In this document: in pieces, positions 5,433-16,532 of the stretch
Position numbering within the stretch: the stretch's first letter is position 1
Layout of the letters: every line of letters begins with the position of its first letter
Virus record (IMG/VR): IMGVR_UViG_3300032342_001375
Span: 1-20,338 of that record
From: a virus
Direction: 5' to 3' (one strand)
Length of the DNA: 20,338 bases
Made by a program: the position numbers and the translations under genes
The notes under the pieces: model-generated
Database searches by the model: none
What the model was told of the DNA's origin: nothing
The model's input: the letters and a program-made list of their open reading frames with translations, nothing else

Positions 5433-6540
5433 TTAGAAGTTATCCTTGTTTAAGGCTTCTTCGATTAATTTTTGACACAATTCGTTCAAAAATTTATGAT
5501 CGGGCTCCTTTGGCAGAGCCTTGGAAGTCTTATATAGGTCATTTAGTTCCTTTTCTTGGGTATCTGACCACTCAATCAGTTTCTCATACGACCAGATGCC
5601 GTGATTTTTAATTGCCAGGAGTTCTTCCCTGTCCTCGGTCCTCTTGACAATAACCTTGCCCTGGGTAAGAATTTCCCTACACATCTTCATAAGACGCACA
5701 AGATGCGACCCATGTTTGGTGTCATAGCCAAACTTGGCCTCAAGGGCTGCGCGTTTTGGGTTGCGGGTGTTGAGCCAGCTTCGGTATTGCTCCCACTCAG
5801 TTTGTTTGCCTTTGAAGGCACGTTCCTTTTGAAGGAGGGCAAGGAAGTTATCATCAAATCCCAGGGACCGACCAGTACGGGTCCATACTTCATCAGAGGT
5901 AAGGTTCATTTCGGCAAAGAAGGAAGAAATGCACCCCTGAAGATTAATCCTCTGGGACTCATCCAGTACGGACCAGTCAAAGTCAAAGGTCTCGATCTTC
6001 TTCTTGATTTCTGCCTCAACCACCCCAAGTTGATCCCTTGGGATAAGGGTAAACTCAGGGAGGTCAAAATCCTTACGGGTGGGCGGAGCCTTCGGAGGAT
6101 TGGATAGCCACTTGTAGTGAGTCTGGATGCGCTTTAGCTGGGCGTGGGCATACCCGGAAAATGTGTGCTTGGCCTTGAGGGACAAAAACCTGTCCTTGTT
6201 CTCAAGGAGGAGGGTCCCAGCTGGTGCTACCTTCACCCACACGCTTGGGTCTGTGTGCAGGACCTCAATAATGTTTGGGTTGCACTGAGAAGCAAGTTTG
6301 AAGAACTTGCGAATTTCATAGATTACAAGGTCATAGGGCTCCTTGCCTTCTGCCTGTTCAAATCCCTCCGTGTACCCAAGATATACGTTCCTGGGGGCGA
6401 TACAAAGTCCCTTCACGTCAATGTCGGAGGTCTCGGTGGCCAGACCATAAGCGTGGCTACCATGCAAAGATAGTCCTGTCCTTCAGCCAACTTACGTTGC
6501 CGTTGTACATCAGGTCAAAGTCTGGTTTAATGTTGGTCAT
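5433..6540 (-). pseudogene. RlaP-type nucleotidyltransferase (Pol beta superfamily) with frameshift near its N-terminus
   Basis: The main frame (6467 to 5433) carries the nucleotidyltransferase signature H-G-S-H-A-Y-G-L-x(4)-S-D-I-D-V-K-G, the G-S plus D-x-D metal site of the Pol beta superfamily, as in the YcgL/RlaP family (COG3541). This family is associated with RNA repair. The frame only allows a TTG start placed directly at the catalytic motif. The 73 bases upstream encode, in another frame from ATG 6540, MTNIKPDFDL and then NVSWLKDRTIFAW followed by a stop. That is how such proteins normally begin. The two parts need a +1 shift (or -2) near 6460-6470 to join. The ATG at 6540 is 28 bases after the preceding stop, which fits the real start. 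A base-calling error, short deletion, true pseudogene or recoding site are all possible. Confidence 0.75.
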
Positions 6541-10171: not shown

Positions 10172-10969
10172 TTATGTTTTCGCATCTTCCCCTAGTCCCA
10201 TTCTTGGGGGATCGTGTGAGTAAGGCTTTCTGTGAAGGTTCTTGGAGACCTTCGCCATCACGTCCTTAGTTCTCTTTTTGTTGGGGTCGTGTCTGTCCAT
10301 GTAGACTGCCCCGCCCCCTATCATGCCCCGCCTTACAGACTTAGTAGCCTTCTCCAGGCCCATGTCATCCAGAACGTTCTCTATAAGGTCCATCAGAACT
10401 TGGTGGTCCTCTGGGAGCTTTCTTTTCTTCCTTCTTCTGACCGGCGTGCCCCCGGACCACATGGTCCTGTGTTGTGGGCCCATGTCAATGCCAAGAGGCT
10501 GTCCACCCGTGGCAGAGACACCCCCGCCACCAACGGCATTAAACTCATTTTGCATCTTTGGGATATTTTCCAGGTCACTAGGGGAAATCAAATACCCCCG
10601 AAGACCCTTTAGTCCCATCTCTCTTGCTTTCCAAAGCCGATGCATCCCGTCAGCGATAAAAACTCCATCTGGATACTCAACTGCTATAATCGGAAAGGAA
10701 ACATCTGCCTTGTCTGCTCGTGCAACAAACTCGGGACTACCTGGAACTTCATCAGTGTCCTGCATTGAGTCGGGTCCCAGGTTTGTGTCAACGAGACTTT
10801 CAACACTCAAGACCCTGGCAGGAATCTTGTTTTGTCTGATATATTCTATGATGTCCCCAACGCGATATACTCCGTTGTTGTCGCTAAATTGCTGATCGCT
10901 GAAGTTTACTTCTGTAAGCTCTTGCTCGACAAGCTCCTCTATGAGTTGTTGGATATTGTTACCAGTCAT
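10172..10969 (-). CDS. ParB/sulfiredoxin-fold protein with N-terminal tag
   Basis: A 265-residue protein. Residues 6-18 (IQQLIEELVEQEL) match the amphipathic tag shared with the next three upstream genes. Residues about 93-128 form a ParB/Srx-like core: FPIIAVEYPDGVFIADGMHRLWKAREMGLKG, with the D-G-x-H-R motif at 107-111. In ParB-like proteins this motif binds nucleotide or takes part in DNA binding or cleavage. A Gly-rich linker follows (about 140-165), then a very basic stretch RRRKKRK and a helical basic C-terminus that could bind DNA. The start overlaps the end of the preceding kinase-like gene by 11 bases (ATGACTGGTAA), implying coupled translation. It may be a virion-delivered DNA-binding protein, which is inference from the tag and the basic regions. 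Confidence 0.75.
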   Translation of the reverse strand: MTGNNIQQLIEELVEQELTEVNFSDQQFSDNNGVYRVGDIIEYIRQNKIPARVLSVESLVDTNLGPDSMQDTDEVPGSPEFVARADKADVSFPIIAVEYPDGVFIADGMHRLWKAREMGLKGLRGYLISPSDLENIPKMQNEFNAVGGGGVSATGGQPLGIDMGPQHRTMWSGGTPVRRRKKRKLPEDHQVLMDLIENVLDDMGLEKATKSVRRGMIGGGAVYMDRHDPNKKRTKDVMAKVSKNLHRKPYSHDPPRMGLGEDAKT

Positions 10970-11585
10970 TTATCCCCAAGTCCACACAAACAAGTCTGCC
11001 ATTTCCGGTTATTCCCCAGTGGTCCCACCTGTCGGTGTCATGCAAGCCCCCTGCACTTAGGTGAGCCATCTTTTTAACTAGTTCCTTACCAAGGGGAGTT
11101 GGATTCACGTCCGGGACATGCCAGGGCTTTTTGGCCGAGAATATCCCAAGGAGCCTGTTTGGTGGAATCTTGTTTACCATTTGGAAATCCAGGGCTGCTG
11201 TCAGCCAGTCCTCGGCAAGTCCTGTTGCCTGTTCAAACTCTGTTGGACTATTCCATGTGGTGGCATGCTCGGAAACCAACCACCAGAAATTTGGATCGTG
11301 GTCATAAATTACCGGGGCATATTTTGGTCCGAACTTTTGAAATGCCTCAAACTCCTTTGAGTTTTGTCCTGGGCCCTTGCCTATTTTAATCACCTTGGTG
11401 GGCGTCAGGACATAGGCGCACCGGGAGATCCCGCACCCAACACGCACCAGCCCACGGTCCTGAACATAGTTCATCCTGGCCTTATAGTCAGCCAGGGCTT
11501 TAAACTCTTCCATGTCAAAGGCACTTGACAAAAAGGCTTCTTCCACAAGCCGATCCAAGACCTCTCTGAGATGTTGATTTTTCAT
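10959..11585 (-). CDS. Protein kinase-like fold protein, copy 2 of a tandem pair
   Basis: A 208-residue protein, paralogous to the one encoded directly upstream. It begins with the shared tag (LREVLDRLVEEAF, 6-18), then FDMEEFKAL. GCGISRCAYVL at 50-60 acts like a glycine loop, with Lys67 in VIKIG as the candidate ATP lysine and E78/E80 as a helix Glu. A hinge-like WWLVSEHA is at about 101-108. The end has LHDTDRWDHWG (181-191) and RLVCVDLG (197-204), which match the catalytic-loop Asp and the D-x-G metal motif of kinase and aminoglycoside phosphotransferase folds. The usual Asn five residues after the Asp is Asp188, so activity is open. It overlaps the upstream gene as ATGA. Uncharacterised phage proteins of this kind are known to me only by pattern. 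Confidence 0.65.
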   Translation of the reverse strand: MKNQHLREVLDRLVEEAFLSSAFDMEEFKALADYKARMNYVQDRGLVRVGCGISRCAYVLTPTKVIKIGKGPGQNSKEFEAFQKFGPKYAPVIYDHDPNFWWLVSEHATTWNSPTEFEQATGLAEDWLTAALDFQMVNKIPPNRLLGIFSAKKPWHVPDVNPTPLGKELVKKMAHLSAGGLHDTDRWDHWGITGNGRLVCVDLGINDW

Positions 11586-12259
11586 TCGGTACTAATCCCC
11601 GGGTCCACACAAACCAATCTCCCATCACTGGCCCATCCCCAGTGATCTGCCCTGGTTATGTCAATCAAGCCATTAGCGTTTAGGTGGTGGTGTTTCTCAA
11701 TATACTGTTGGCCAAGTGGCGTGAGGCTTTCCCAGTCTGGAACCTCTTCACCGGACCACATAAATTTGTCTTTTTCTGATTTAAAATTCTGCCACTGTTC
11801 AGCGGTATCACTTGCGGATAATCGTCCCCGCTGCCCCAAATACGTCTCGAAATATCTTGCAAGATGATAACTTAGGCCAGTTTTTTCTTTAAATTCCCAC
11901 CCAGAGGAAAAGGTCCTGGCAGGCTCCACTATCAGCCAAGTATTATTTTCATCGAAGTCAAATATCCTTGGAACATACTCCGGGCCAAATTTCTTGAAGG
12001 CACTTATTTCACCTTCATTTTGTTCTGTGTCTGGATATTCAGGACGGACCAGCAATTTTAGCACCTTGCCGGAGGATAAAATATAGGAACACCTCGCGGA
12101 TCCACAGTTAAGCAAAGTTAACGTCTTGTCCGCGTAAGTTTTTTGGTCGCTGGCAGTAGGAAGCTTCTTGAAATAGTTCAGGTCAAATCCGCCCCTAAGC
12201 TTTTCATCCAGGGCTTCTTCCACAAGAAAATCAAGATATTCTTTTAGGTGGGTGGGCAC
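11582..12259 (-). CDS. Protein kinase-like fold protein, copy 1 of a tandem pair
   Basis: A 225-residue paralogue of the gene that follows. The tag LKEYLDFLVEEAL (5-17) is followed by FDLNYFKKL. NCGSARCSYIL (51-61) and Lys68 (KVLKLL) form the nucleotide site, FGPEYVPRIFDFDENNTWLIVE the hinge region, and LIDITRADHWG (199-208) plus RLVCVDPG the catalytic end. Most of these blocks align with copy 2, which proves common origin, although about 25 residues between them differ. Metal-binding Asp200 and Asp219 are kept in both copies. The start is a GTG whose ribosome binding site AAGGA lies in the arm of a perfect 7-bp hairpin (12261-12279). The target, if it is a kinase, cannot be told. Confidence 0.65.
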   Translation of the reverse strand: MPTHLKEYLDFLVEEALDEKLRGGFDLNYFKKLPTASDQKTYADKTLTLLNCGSARCSYILSSGKVLKLLVRPEYPDTEQNEGEISAFKKFGPEYVPRIFDFDENNTWLIVEPARTFSSGWEFKEKTGLSYHLARYFETYLGQRGRLSASDTAEQWQNFKSEKDKFMWSGEEVPDWESLTPLGQQYIEKHHHLNANGLIDITRADHWGWASDGRLVCVDPGISTE

Positions 12260-12260
12260 A

Positions 12261-12279
12261 ACGTCCTTAATTAGGACGT
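12261..12279 (-). promoter_or_regulatory. Hairpin covering the ribosome binding site of the kinase-like gene
   Basis: The 21-base gap between the nucleotidase stop and the GTG start at 12259 is nearly all a perfect inverted repeat, ACGTCCT-5-AGGACGT. On the minus-strand RNA the 3' arm contains AAGGA, the only ribosome binding site, and the hairpin ends one base before GTG. Formation of the hairpin should hide the site. It lacks a U-run, so it is not a classic terminator. Confidence 0.55.
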
Positions 12280-12280
12280 G

Positions 12281-12955
12281 TCACCCCGGCAATCCTCTTG
12301 ATTTGAGAATATTTTCAAGTTGCTGTAGTGTGTCCGCAGGATTTTTGTGCAAAATGGCAGTTCCCCCGTTGGCCTCAAACTTTGAGGTGTACTTGGTCCG
12401 GTCATCGATCAAGATTGCGTTGGAATTCGCGTACTTGTGCTTGTCCTGGGTGCAGATGAACTCCGAGAACATCCCAGGGAAGTTCTTTTCTACCCACTGA
12501 CGCTTTTCTGCCTCACACCTGGCCGTGTCCCCGTCAATTGGGGCTGTCAGGATATTGGGCTTCTTGCCAGTTAGGCCAGCAGCCCGGGAGAGCATTTCCC
12601 CTGCCCCATCCAGAACCGGAAGGCTCAGGAAGAACCCTGGCTGCCCTGCCACGGCGAATTTCTGCTCCCGGTACCTCTGCCAGGCTTTCTTCAGGGCTTT
12701 CATTCCTGGGTCAGCCTGTGGGCCAGCAAGCCGCGCCTTGAGTTCATCGTCCCCAAGGGAGGCAAACTCTGGGAAATTCCCAACAAGTTCCTCAAAGGCT
12801 TTCTTGGTTTTGTTGTTGTCTCCCCCGGTCTGAGCGGCAACTCCCTGGGAAAAATCGGCAAGAACCCCGTCCATGTCGAAGTAAATCACGGGTGTGTCAA
12901 GGACATTTAGTTCGGCCTCAACGATGGTTTCAACTAGTTCTTTAAGAAGGCTCAT
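12281..12955 (-). CDS. HAD-type 5'(3')-deoxyribonucleotidase-like protein with N-terminal tag
   Basis: A 224-residue HAD-superfamily phosphatase. Residues 3-16 (LLKELVETIVEAEL) are the shared tag, and the catalytic domain starts at about residue 22. The HAD motifs are D27-M-D29-G-V-L-A-D-F (motif I, Asp nucleophile and acid), ILT137AP (motif II), Lys172 or Lys174 near QDKHKYA (motif III) and ILIDDRTKY with D184/D185 (motif IV). The D-x-D-G-V-L-x-D-F form and the final GGTAILHKN pattern are typical of NT5C-like deoxyribonucleotidases, which dephosphorylate dNMPs. A large cap region (about 45-125) sits between motifs I and II. With ribonucleotide reductase and ThyX near, a part in dNTP balance is likely. 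The start follows the protease stop by 6 bases and has no clear ribosome binding site. Confidence 0.85.
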   Translation of the reverse strand: MSLLKELVETIVEAELNVLDTPVIYFDMDGVLADFSQGVAAQTGGDNNKTKKAFEELVGNFPEFASLGDDELKARLAGPQADPGMKALKKAWQRYREQKFAVAGQPGFFLSLPVLDGAGEMLSRAAGLTGKKPNILTAPIDGDTARCEAEKRQWVEKNFPGMFSEFICTQDKHKYANSNAILIDDRTKYTSKFEANGGTAILHKNPADTLQQLENILKSRGLPG

Positions 12956-12956
12956 G

Positions 12957-12971
12957 TGCTACTAAGTAGCA
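12957..12971 (-). repeat. Perfect 15-base palindrome at the protease/nucleotidase junction
   Basis: TGCTACT-A-AGTAGCA is symmetrical around one base. It includes the protease stop codon (12962-12964) and ends one base before the ATG of the nucleotidase at 12955. As RNA it would give a 6-bp stem with a 3-base loop. It may control initiation of a gene that has no visible ribosome binding site. Confidence 0.45.
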
Positions 12972-13846
12972 TGAGTTCCGGCATCTGCAATGGCTGGTAT
13001 TTCTGTCCCTAAAAGTCTTCTAATTACCTCAACGCTGTAGTAGATGGTAATGTGAGAGTGAGAGCCCCTGCCAAGGATGGCGTCAGCAAAACCGACAATT
13101 TCTCCTCTGGAGTTCACGAGTGGACCGCCAGAACATCCAGGGGACGTTGGAACGCTCACCTGAAGGATATTGACCATACTCGCGTCAGTTTCATCACTGC
13201 TCACGAGTCTGGTTACGATTCCGTTAAAGAACATCCAGGGTACTCCAAGAGGATGACCCGCGTGGAAAACTTCATCTCCTATGGCAGGAACGCCCTCTGC
13301 GAGGGGAGAGAAAGCTCTTGGACGAAAGTCTCCGTGTCTCACACGGAGAATAACAACGTCGCTGTCCTCATCATAAAGAGTTACCTGAGCCTCAACCGGA
13401 GTGCCGGTTATTTCACCCTCCCAGTTAATTTCTCCATATTGTACGAAAAAGGCTCTTTGTCCAAGCGGATTAGAGGTCATCGGGATTTGAATAATCAATC
13501 CCGGGGCTATTTCTACCGTGGCTATGTCCTGGAAACAGTGTGCGGCACTGACCAGGTGGCTTTCGTCAATAAAGAAACCGGAACAATATGGGCCATCCCA
13601 AGTAACGTCGGAAACTGGCTCGCCTGTGTCGTCCGACAACTCTGAAGGTACAACAAAGGCAACTGTTGACTCCAGAAGTTGAGTGACATTAACATCACTT
13701 AAGTCTACTCTTGAAAGTGGTGGACGCGCTATGCGTTGTGCGCAGCTTACGCAACACACAAACACTGAGCCAATCATCGCAAAAACCATCAAGCTCACAA
13801 ACAAATTAAAAATTTTACTATGTTTTACCGTCCCGTGTGTTGTCAT
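12962..13846 (-). CDS. Membrane-anchored or exported trypsin-like serine protease
   Basis: A 294-residue protein of the trypsin/HtrA-like (S1) family. Residues 11-35 are a hydrophobic segment after a basic start (KHSK, then FNLFVSLMVFAMIGSVFV), which is a signal peptide or membrane anchor. Cys36 follows V-S, a poor fit to a lipobox. The catalytic triad is visible: His103 in SAAHC, Asp163 in DSDVVILRV and Ser239 in GCSGGPL. HAGHPLG and the VGFADAILG end resemble HtrA-like protease domains, but there is no PDZ domain. It should cut proteins outside the cytoplasm or at the membrane. An exported protease is unusual amid nucleotide genes. The start has GGGAG and GAGGGA close to the ATG and lies at the end of a 9-bp inverted repeat. 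Confidence 0.9.
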   Translation of the reverse strand: MTTHGTVKHSKIFNLFVSLMVFAMIGSVFVCCVSCAQRIARPPLSRVDLSDVNVTQLLESTVAFVVPSELSDDTGEPVSDVTWDGPYCSGFFIDESHLVSAAHCFQDIATVEIAPGLIIQIPMTSNPLGQRAFFVQYGEINWEGEITGTPVEAQVTLYDEDSDVVILRVRHGDFRPRAFSPLAEGVPAIGDEVFHAGHPLGVPWMFFNGIVTRLVSSDETDASMVNILQVSVPTSPGCSGGPLVNSRGEIVGFADAILGRGSHSHITIYYSVEVIRRLLGTEIPAIADAGTHAT

Positions 13847-13902: not shown

Positions 13903-15768
13903 TTAAGACAATCTACGAAAAATCTCTGTTTCTCTACGTTCCATCTCTTGGCCTAGTTCCTTGCCGGAGAACCCTTGTGACTGCAACTCAAGACCAGTAA
14001 TGGATGGTTCATATCGAAGAAAAATGTTAACGAGATGATCGTCAGGTTTTCCAACCAGCCCTGAAAACTCCACTAAATCTTGCCCGCCCAGGCGGGAGTT
14101 TTTGAAAAACTTCTTCATTTTAAAGGCGTTGTTGACGTTCAGTGCCATAAACATTGGAAAAAATGATACCTGAGCAACTTCGTCTGCTGAATATTTTAAG
14201 TTATTCAGTTTTGCCATTAATATTTTTGAATCATTTTCTCTCAAAAGAACTCCTAGGGCTACCGGAATGTTCTTGGTGTCCCTGAAGTCCTTGGAGACGT
14301 TCAGGCCAGGAAAAACCTGGGGCCAGAGGTCATATTCTGAGATAAGATTATAGAACATCGGCACAGACTTCGCACTCTTGATTCCCTTTAGGAACTCATC
14401 TCGGATTCGTTCTGCCGAAACCCCGACCAGGGAGTTGTTCCCCTTGATTGCCTGGGCCGTGGCCGGGTCGAGCCCAGAACCGATCCTGGCCGCGAACCTG
14501 AGGGCACGAAGTACCCTAAGCCTGTCCTCCCCGAAACGCTCCTCCGGGCTTCCTACGGTCCTGATGGTACCCTTTTCAATGTCCTCCATGCCCCCAACGT
14601 AGTCAACGATCTCCCCGGTCTCAATGTCATAAAAAAGAGCATTGATGGTGAGGTCTCTTCTGGCTACGTCCTGGTCGATGGTCGTGAAGGCAACTGCGTC
14701 TGGCCTGCGCCCTACTCCGATATCGCGCCTAAAGGTGGCAATTTCATATTCGTTGCCCTCTGCGGTGATTGTTTTCACCACACCGAAAGCCTTACCAATT
14801 TCGAGAATCTTAAGGGAGGGATCTTGTTGTAAAATTGCAACAACATCATCTGGTTGGGCGTCTGTGGCTATGTCCAGGTCTTTTGGTTCCTTACCCATGA
14901 GGGCGTCCCTGACGGCTCCCCCGACAAGGTAGAACTGTTTCCCGGCAGTCTGGAACATCTTAGAAATAGCTAGAAGGTCAGCCGGGAGGGGGATGTGGAA
15001 TTTTTTTTTAATGGGCTGGGTGGGTTCCGTCTCAAGTAAAACTTGTTCTAATAGTGTCTGGCGTTTCTTCTTGATACCGGCCAAAAGAGCCCATCGGCCT
15101 GGTGAAAACAAAGTTGACTCCGCAACGTTTTCCGAGGCAAGGTTTCTCAACATTTCTCTGTTGTCAACCGACAGGACTTTATCAAAACCTTCGTCGCCGG
15201 ACGGTTTTTGAAAGGCAGCAAACATTCGCTGGATTGCCGCAGGGGGAACCGTCTTACTCTTGCCCATTCTTTTGGCAGTCTCAGCTCTTTTAAGGGCAAT
15301 TTTTTGAATTACGTCCTCTGCTCCCTCAAATTCAAAAACGACAGCAATTTTTTCGTATTCTCCCTCGGAACCTTGAATGATGGAAAGGGCTCTTTTCCTA
15401 GCTGGGGCGTTCATGTTTGTCATGTCAACAACAATATTGTCTTGCCCCTTGGCTCCAGCTACTCTTGAGGTGAACTCGGCTTCAACCCTGTTGTTTGCCT
15501 CTAGAATTTTAGAGAAAGAAAGAGCTTGCCAGGTCATCCACCCCGGGGACTTGACAACCTCACCGTACTTTTCGTCCACGTCACCTATCTGGGCATCCGT
15601 AGGAGGTCCAACAAACATGTCGTCATAGGTCCACCCATAAGAGGAAGCAACTTGTTCTGCCAGGTCGTCTCTATTAACAATATAGGGATCCGTGCCTGCG
15701 AAAGTACCCTGAATCCAGGTGGACTTGCCAACGGAGGGCGGTCCGATTAAAACGAATATTTTTTTCAT
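13903..15768 (-). CDS. Fusion of a polynucleotide kinase-like P-loop domain with a CCA-adding type tRNA nucleotidyltransferase
   Basis: A 621-residue two-domain protein. Residues 1 to about 210 form a P-loop kinase of the T4 Pnk/AAA_33 type: GPPSVGKST (9-17), VNRDDLAE (31-38) and VVDMTNMNAPARKRAL (113-128). After a linker (about 210-258), residues 279-430 carry class II nucleotidyltransferase motifs: LVGGAVRDALMG with D297-L-D299 (metal site), the FRRD block, RRDLTINALFYD (370-381), D-Y-V-G-G and EDRLRVLRALRFAAR (414-428). These add CCA or A tails to RNA 3' ends. The frame opens with a GTG 18 bases upstream, but ATG 15768 overlaps the previous stop as ATGA and starts at the kinase strand, so I use it. 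No HD domain is seen. It probably repairs RNA ends. Confidence 0.9.
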   Translation of the reverse strand: MKKIFVLIGPPSVGKSTWIQGTFAGTDPYIVNRDDLAEQVASSYGWTYDDMFVGPPTDAQIGDVDEKYGEVVKSPGWMTWQALSFSKILEANNRVEAEFTSRVAGAKGQDNIVVDMTNMNAPARKRALSIIQGSEGEYEKIAVVFEFEGAEDVIQKIALKRAETAKRMGKSKTVPPAAIQRMFAAFQKPSGDEGFDKVLSVDNREMLRNLASENVAESTLFSPGRWALLAGIKKKRQTLLEQVLLETEPTQPIKKKFHIPLPADLLAISKMFQTAGKQFYLVGGAVRDALMGKEPKDLDIATDAQPDDVVAILQQDPSLKILEIGKAFGVVKTITAEGNEYEIATFRRDIGVGRRPDAVAFTTIDQDVARRDLTINALFYDIETGEIVDYVGGMEDIEKGTIRTVGSPEERFGEDRLRVLRALRFAARIGSGLDPATAQAIKGNNSLVGVSAERIRDEFLKGIKSAKSVPMFYNLISEYDLWPQVFPGLNVSKDFRDTKNIPVALGVLLRENDSKILMAKLNNLKYSADEVAQVSFFPMFMALNVNNAFKMKKFFKNSRLGGQDLVEFSGLVGKPDDHLVNIFLRYEPSITGLELQSQGFSGKELGQEMERRETEIFRRLS

Positions 15769-16532
15769 AGGTGTTTTAGTATCCACTTAATCGCAGCGAG
15801 GTCAAACCCAACCCTGCTTTTGATGGGCTTAGTCTGGGGGGTTTCCAGGGTGGTTGTTTCCTTGCACCCGAGGTCAAAGACAAAGGTCTCGGAGGTTCCC
15901 TTGTACTCGGGACTTTCCCACAGCCCCTTCTTTTTGGAGACTCCAAGAGCAGCCTGAAGACTCCGAACAACTCCCTTAACCTTCAGGTTTCTGAAGATAT
16001 AGGGCTCTTTGTCCTTTATAGTCGAGTCCTCGTGAATGTCAACAAAGATCGAGGGGTTGAAGTTCTTGATTTGTCTTTTAAGTTCGTGGATATACCGAGG
16101 AGCACGCTCTCTAGCCCAAACCGAGTTTAGATTTGTCTTGGCGTTCTCCAGGCGGGTTCTCTTGTTCCAGGCATCATGCCCAACAAGAGGGCATATAAGA
16201 AGAGACACGTTCTTTGGAATCAGACTGCCTCTCTTGGACGCCTCAAGCCAGGTCAAAAGAGAAATTGGCCCGGATCTTTCTTCCCCGTGAACGCCGGAGA
16301 TGATGGCGATCTTGCTTGGACCATGACCCAGACAGTATACAAATCTGTTATCGTCAAGGTATCTTGCGCGAAAGCCGTGTCTTTTCGCTGCCTTCGCAAA
16401 CCTGTCCATGTATTTTTGGGCCGACAAGTTGTTGATTATATTAAGCTTTCTTGACAGACCAAACAAGGCGGCGACCTCCTGAGAAACCAGGGGTTTGTTC
16501 CAAGCAGAACTTTTGGACTTGGTGGTCACCAT
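15765..16532 (-). CDS. M14-like zinc carboxypeptidase / AspA-AstE family protein
   Basis: A 255-residue protein with metal-binding and catalytic motifs of the zinc carboxypeptidase and succinylglutamate desuccinylase/aspartoacylase fold. These are GVHGEE (H82 and E85 as first ligands), LENAKTNLN (128-136, substrate Asn), FVDIHED (H167 as third ligand) and TTLETP (E230 as general base). The family hydrolyses peptide or N-acyl amide bonds. No signal peptide is visible, so a cytoplasmic or virion site is likely; a peptidoglycan peptide is one possible substrate. It overlaps the kinase-CCA gene as ATGA. No ribosome binding site is evident before the ATG; instead a palindrome (16534-16549) lies there. 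Confidence 0.85.
   Translation of the reverse strand: MVTTKSKSSAWNKPLVSQEVAALFGLSRKLNIINNLSAQKYMDRFAKAAKRHGFRARYLDDNRFVYCLGHGPSKIAIISGVHGEERSGPISLLTWLEASKRGSLIPKNVSLLICPLVGHDAWNKRTRLENAKTNLNSVWARERAPRYIHELKRQIKNFNPSIFVDIHEDSTIKDKEPYIFRNLKVKGVVRSLQAALGVSKKKGLWESPEYKGTSETFVFDLGCKETTTLETPQTKPIKSRVGFDLAAIKWILKHL

Follow-up and report, generated by a model that had tools for sequence, protein, structure and literature searches.

A portable N-terminal helix on neighbouring proteins of a probable huge phage is a candidate T4-type capsid-targeting sequence

The question raised by this locus is why four neighbouring proteins should all begin in the same way. The window, meaning the whole 20,338-base stretch analysed (IMG/VR virus record IMGVR_UViG_3300032342_001375, consisting of this single contig), probably derives from a huge phage. 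Between positions 10172 and 12955 it encodes four consecutive minus-strand open reading frames (ORFs), each opening with a 13-residue amphipathic segment; the tag they share lies within residues 1-19. We propose that this tag is probably a capsid-targeting sequence (CTS) of the T4 type, carried on a portable, lineage-specific amphipathic helix that would then be trimmed by an S77 prohead protease.

Four adjacent proteins share an N-terminal amphipathic tag

The N-termini read MSLLKELVETIVEAEL in the HAD ORF (12281-12955, minus strand, as are all window genes described here), MPTHLKEYLDFLVEEAL in kinase-like protein 1 (kin1, 11582-12259), MKNQHLREVLDRLVEEAF in kinase-like protein 2 (kin2, 10959-11585) and MTGNNIQQLIEELVEQEL in the ParB-like ORF (10172-10969). 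The tags themselves are located at 12902-12955 (HAD 5'-nucleotidase, residues 1-18, MSLLKELVETIVEAELNV, with a candidate prohead-protease site IVE/A), 12206-12259 (kin1, MPTHLKEYLDFLVEEALD, where YLDFLVE is in register with T4 CTS YQEFIAE), 11529-11585 (kin2, MKNQHLREVLDRLVEEAFL) and 10913-10969 (ParB-like ORF tag 1, MTGNNIQQLIEELVEQELT). A tag common to these four proteins had been proposed in a first-pass annotation of the window and was borne out by a leave-one-out test, in which a 13-column profile built from three tags was scored on the fourth and compared with shuffles. Shuffle p values were 5e-5, <5e-5, 2e-4 and 2e-4 for HAD, kin1, kin2 and ParB-like, respectively, that is, p <= 2e-4 throughout. 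Among 6,228 other 13-mers from the 27 predicted window proteins, a single one scored equally well or better, for the ParB profile alone, and the hydrophobic moment of the tags lies in the top 0.4-6% of 13-mers. The four-way N-terminal likeness is real and goes beyond chance. The next-best match to the full tag profile was the C-terminal helix of an RlaP-type nucleotidyltransferase (5433-6467; LNELCQKLIEEAL, residues 327-339), which is tag-like and kept in relatives. It was set aside as a further tag because it probably belongs to the protein's own fold; the PHROG match covers nearly the whole protein.

The bodies behind the tags differ. The HAD body (12281-12901) is a 5'(3')-deoxyribonucleotidase of the NT5C type (Pfam NT5C 1.1e-9; phrog_2643 1.6e-27). 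Kinase-like body 1 (11582-12205) was connected by phmmer to phrog_4301-type proteins of relatives, and body 2 (10959-11528) belongs to phrog_4301 and has a fold like that of APH(2'')-Ia and PRPK. The AlphaFold model of the kinase-like body has a predicted local distance difference test score (pLDDT) of 87, and Foldseek matched it to APH(2'')-Ia and PRPK with a probability of 1.0 and a template-modelling (TM) score of about 0.4, so the resemblance to kinases holds at fold level only. The sole basis for the label ParB-like is a weak match to a PHROG family whose function is unknown. The bodies had initially been described as unrelated, which stands for the HAD, kinase-like and ParB-like proteins, but kin1 and kin2, at 40% identity, are paralogues of each other, leaving three independent bodies instead of four. 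In AlphaFold models, the tag forms a helix spanning residues 2-19 in HAD (pLDDT 54-65 versus >90 in the core) and 6-19 in kin2 (pLDDT ~55), and is thus predicted to be a separate low-confidence helix outside the well-folded HAD and kinase-like bodies. HAD homologues of XacN1, Cr30, Atu_ph07 and LR745206 begin directly at the HAD motif and have no tag.

The tag is conserved in relatives and marks module joints

Relatives were reached through the HAD body, specifically a 65-kb contig (L007) and a 320-kb contig (L009, hereafter G002); a third contig, L008, encodes the same proteins as L007. A close-relative scan with kin1 and tblastn searches with kin2 and the ParB-like protein returned no matches. 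The L007 and G002 orthologues carry the tag, as do their CCA-adding enzyme (MAMKNQYLRRYVEYLVENILLE) and a 553-aa ORF (MATETIKKLIEALVENVLDDMG). Between orthologues, the codons of the tags have changed mainly in synonymous or conservative ways (in kin2, 8 codons differ synonymously and 1 amino acid is altered), indicating that the tag peptide is under selection. In G002, profile searches identified type-A tags outside the training set on a further pair of phrog_4301 kinase-like proteins, an Arr-type ADP-ribosyltransferase ORF and others. A second tag form, M-K-[IV]-T-x-x-[QE]-L-x-x-[ML]-[IV]-x-E-A, is found on about eight further G002 ORFs. The window-lineage profiles gave no signal beyond chance in XacN1, HTVC008M, Cr30 and Atu_ph07.

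Two tag copies beyond the four N-termini are present in the window, both at joints inside fused ORFs. In the ParB-like ORF body (10172-10912), a ParB-like domain separates tag 1 from the EFNAVGGGGVSATGGQPLG body, after which comes a second tagged module; in relatives, the EFNAVGGGGVSATGGQPLG body directly follows tag 1 without the intervening domain. Internal tag 2 (residues ~190-204, 10358-10402, QVLMDLIENVLDDMG) is the counterpart of the N-terminal tag on the separate 553-aa ORF of L007. The other copy is a degraded tag (residues ~238-254, 15025-15075, KKKRQTLLEQVLLE) in an ORF at 13903-15786 in which a polynucleotide-kinase-like (PNK) domain is fused to the tRNA CCA-adding enzyme. In relatives, the CCA enzyme is a free-standing ORF whose N-terminal tag sits at the place matching the window's fusion joint. 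The window tags mark module joints. The suggestion that the tag is a portable module is supported, at the level of sequence, by its being shared, conserved in relatives, detachable from its bodies and able to move between them.

A probable link to the phage head

Cutting by a gp21-like prohead protease had been suggested from the tag sequences, and G002 does encode a T4 gp21-type prohead protease (Peptidase_S77, E=2.2e-27), with a T4-type portal (8e-64) and major capsid protein (7e-74) as neighbours; the genome also has a 792-aa candidate for the scaffold. One G002 ORF with the second tag form directly adjoins the protease gene. Overall, 9 of 18 tagged G002 genes fall within a stretch of 32 genes at 100-132 kb, the head/tail region (hypergeometric 5e-8, a generous value given that neighbouring genes are not independent and that 2 of the 9 were first spotted while reading this region). 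One G002 ORF joins the tag to an Alt-like, Arr-type ADP-ribosyltransferase (ART) domain. T4 Alt is an ART packed into the head via its CTS (PMC9026906; PMC5694885).

In T4 IPIII, the first ten residues suffice, positions 4 and 7 being important for targeting and 8 and 10 for processing (PMC9026906). Two internal proteins in the T4 genome start with MKTYQEFIAE. The tag form of another huge phage, LR756500, reads Y-x-x-F-[IL]-x-E and places Y, F, [ILV] and E at T4 CTS positions 4, 7, 8 and 10, a spacing that YLDFLVE of kin1 also fits. The window-lineage profile ranks the tagged proteins of LR756500 over its remaining ones (p about 1e-13). The motif [LIVMFY]-x-E-[AGSNT] exceeds shuffles in the N-termini of every tag set (type A: 13/19 vs 6.4, p 0.0015).

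Other huge phages carry their own N-terminal dialects

Genome-specific tag forms, here called dialects, were sought in an unsupervised manner by comparing all N-termini of a genome pairwise once pairs whose bodies are homologous had been taken out; residues 61-83 of these proteins served as control. At a score of >=38, similar N-terminal versus internal pairs numbered 22 vs 3 in G002 and 13 vs 1 in Slicko01; at >=42, they numbered 143 vs 1 in LR756500 and 308 vs 5 in LR745206. T4, which has few internal proteins, gave 2 vs 0, and the S77-less phages T7 and crAss001 gave 0 vs 0 and 1 vs 0. Iterated profiles, for which the chance expectation is 0.5, detected tags on 111 of 955 ORFs genome-wide in LR745206 (W01, 634 kb, loci L121-L153; variants of MK[YH]LK-x-[FY]-[EN]-[ES]) and on 38 of 686 in LR756500 (W02, 462 kb, loci L097-L120; MKYIKEYEEFI[LN]E-type, several in one paralogue family). 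It should be noted that the longest frame was taken for each ORF, which means that some starts are misplaced. Homologues of NrdJ, DnaB, RlaP, tail sheath and protease found in these two genomes are untagged. In the Alishewanella phage Slicko01, MKIxxLYES[LMI][LI]xE recurs on about eight genes near that of the kinase-like protein. XacN1 and Atu_ph07 use dialects other than that of the window lineage. Atu_ph07 encodes about ten ART-like (YRGM) paralogues at 39.5-49.5 kb with N-termini M[RK]WxQL[TN]E, which by counting annotated coding sequences (CDSs) are about CDS 53-62 and fall inside the CDS 31-76 cluster. That cluster as a whole yielded 29 identified virion proteins (PMC6102473).

The same cargo can be found with different dialects. 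In L007 and G002, the CCA enzyme has the tag of the window lineage, whereas its homologue in LR745206 (E 6.5e-73) has MILKKYKMFLES, resembling the latter phage's own dialect. Members of the kinase-like family begin with the shared tag in the window, with MKQVRLSQFLSEA in XacN1 (ORF170) and with MKIYNLYSTLLEA in Slicko01. Judged from these sequences, dialects are swapped between phages, in two lineages for the CCA enzyme and in three for the kinase-like protein.

Proposed mechanism and alternative explanations

The sharing and detachability of the tag and the protease of a close relative are directly visible in the sequences; docking, cutting, packaging and injection are inferred. The N-terminal amphipathic helix would dock cargo enzymes on the scaffold core during prohead assembly, and the gp21-type protease (Peptidase_S77) would cut after [LIVM]-x-E near the helix end. 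After trimming, the enzymes would remain inside the head and be delivered to the host along with the DNA. The S77-encoding relative, the head/tail enrichment, the Alt-like ART, the T4-like dialects and the change of dialect lend this capsid-targeting role strong indirect support.

Several observations weigh against it. Neither head genes nor an S77 protease are present within the 20-kb window, itself a fragment, and two of the four tagged proteins are the paralogues kin1 and kin2. Cr30 and HTVC008M encode S77, yet their dialect signal in the unsupervised test is no better than chance; the presence of S77 therefore does not mean that a dialect is widespread. Untagged homologues occur in phages that all have S77, namely of the kinase-like protein in RaK2 and Munch and of the CCA enzyme in Atu_ph07 and XacN1. 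The S77 match of LR745206 is weak and under the curated cut-off, and its 111 tagged ORFs are many for packaged cargo. Searched against T4, the window-lineage profile places IPII and IPIII no higher than 16th-17th of 269 and Alt either 4th or 21st, according to which columns are taken; the link to T4 CTSs is therefore one of pattern, not of statistical homology. Lastly, the earlier reading of L-V-E and I-V-E as fitting the gp21 rule is in line with the motif enrichment but fails for the ParB orthologues, which have lost L-V-E and read L-V-Q-Q with other [LIVM]-x-E sites nearby; the position of the site varies.

Alternatively, the helix could dock its carriers on a non-capsid hub such as a shared chaperone, a replication/transcription compartment or a nucleotide/tRNA-repair enzyme complex. 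An amphipathic helix by itself does not reveal its binding partner, and the tagged window genes are near nucleotide and tRNA genes (ThyX, PNK-CCA, NrdJ) and not head genes. However, ThyX, NrdJ, ligase and RlaP, which belong to the same pathways and adjoin the tagged genes, are themselves untagged, while the tagged genes of G002 cluster in the head/tail region and the dialects show the T4 CTS pattern with a prohead-protease-like site. We consider a non-capsid hub unlikely. A variant of the capsid-targeting model, in which the tag directs proteins to the head and escapes cutting, would account for the ParB orthologues with L-V-Q-Q; with [LIVMFY]-x-E-[AGSNT] above shuffles in all tag sets, we regard it as improbable to a similar degree. 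That the helices are integral to each protein, or a chance likeness of two paralogues and two other proteins, might be argued from the kin1-kin2 relationship and the similar helix at the RlaP C-terminus. This explanation is refuted, as far as sequence allows, by the leave-one-out significance, the low pLDDT outside the body, the tagless HAD homologues, the tag's occurrence on unrelated proteins, module shuffling and the unsupervised test against internal segments, which makes it highly improbable. Least probable of all is an encapsulation peptide for a microcompartment-like shell of phage or host. The N-terminal amphipathic helices of microcompartment enzymes do look much like the tag, but the shell protein PF00936 was not found in G002, LR745206, LR756500 or Slicko01 while control genomes were positive, and a phage-encoded shell was rejected on the basis of these four genomes.

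Returning to capsid targeting, a broader and more tentative proposal, which we hold somewhat short of even likelihood, is that huge phages each have a private N-terminal head-loading code which enzymes gain or swap on entering a lineage. As many as roughly a hundred proteins in a single phage might then be pre-packed and injected, including tRNA repair and nucleotide enzymes, kinase-like proteins and ADP-ribosyltransferases, and the packed proteome of uncultured phages might be readable from sequence. Since most huge phages have not been cultured, little is known of the proteins they inject. If the tags are CTSs, a cargo list would follow from the genome by finding the dialect and listing its carriers. 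The CCA-adding enzyme, deoxyribonucleotidase, kinase-like and ART-like cargo would, if so, mean that enzymes for translation repair and host modification reach the cell at time zero, and the dialects would be new packaging signals testable in the laboratory.

Neighbouring features

A trypsin-like protease whose N-terminus resembles a signal peptide (VFVCCVSCAQ) is encoded beside the tagged genes (12962-13846); it is kept in L007 and missing at the corresponding place in G002. Short perfect inverted repeats directly precede the start codons of kin1 and HAD (12259-12285, ACGTCCTAATTAAGGACGT; 12955-12975, TGCTACTTAGTAGCA). Across all genes of the window, start-codon hairpins show no excess (8/23 vs 5.5 in shuffles). 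In LR756500, an NrdJ-type ribonucleotide reductase (256359-260485) is seemingly split into two ORFs, perhaps via an insertion.

Comparison with known systems

Capsid targeting is known as a kind of system; for this dialect, its cargo and its scale, no description was found in the open-access literature searched. Encapsulation peptides of the PduP/PduD type are N-terminal amphipathic helices that bring enzymes into a protein shell. The window tags are similar in being amphipathic N-terminal helices on enzymes, as seen in both AlphaFold models, and differ in that the phages searched have no microcompartment shell gene; the likeness is probably convergent. In SPN3US, the phiKZ-type ejection proteins gp53 and gp54 are diverged head proteins with identical N-termini, which the prohead protease cleaves off (PMC5694885). 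Most propeptides of SPN3US exceed 100 residues and have an A-x-E motif, whereas the window tags comprise about 18 residues with [LIVM]-x-E. The T4 CTSs of IPI-III and Alt are, like the window tags, short N-terminal tags common to unrelated bodies, and YLDFLVEEA of kin1 aligns gap-free with YQEFIAEA of IPIII. A terminal [LI]-x-E is a candidate likeness, its position varying among the window-lineage tags. A gp21-type protease in a close relative and an ADP-ribosyltransferase among the relatives' cargo are further shared features. Unlike T4 CTSs, the window-lineage dialect is longer and helix-repeat-like, its cargo includes a 5'-nucleotidase, a CCA-adding enzyme and kinase-like proteins, and its tags are also located within fused ORFs.

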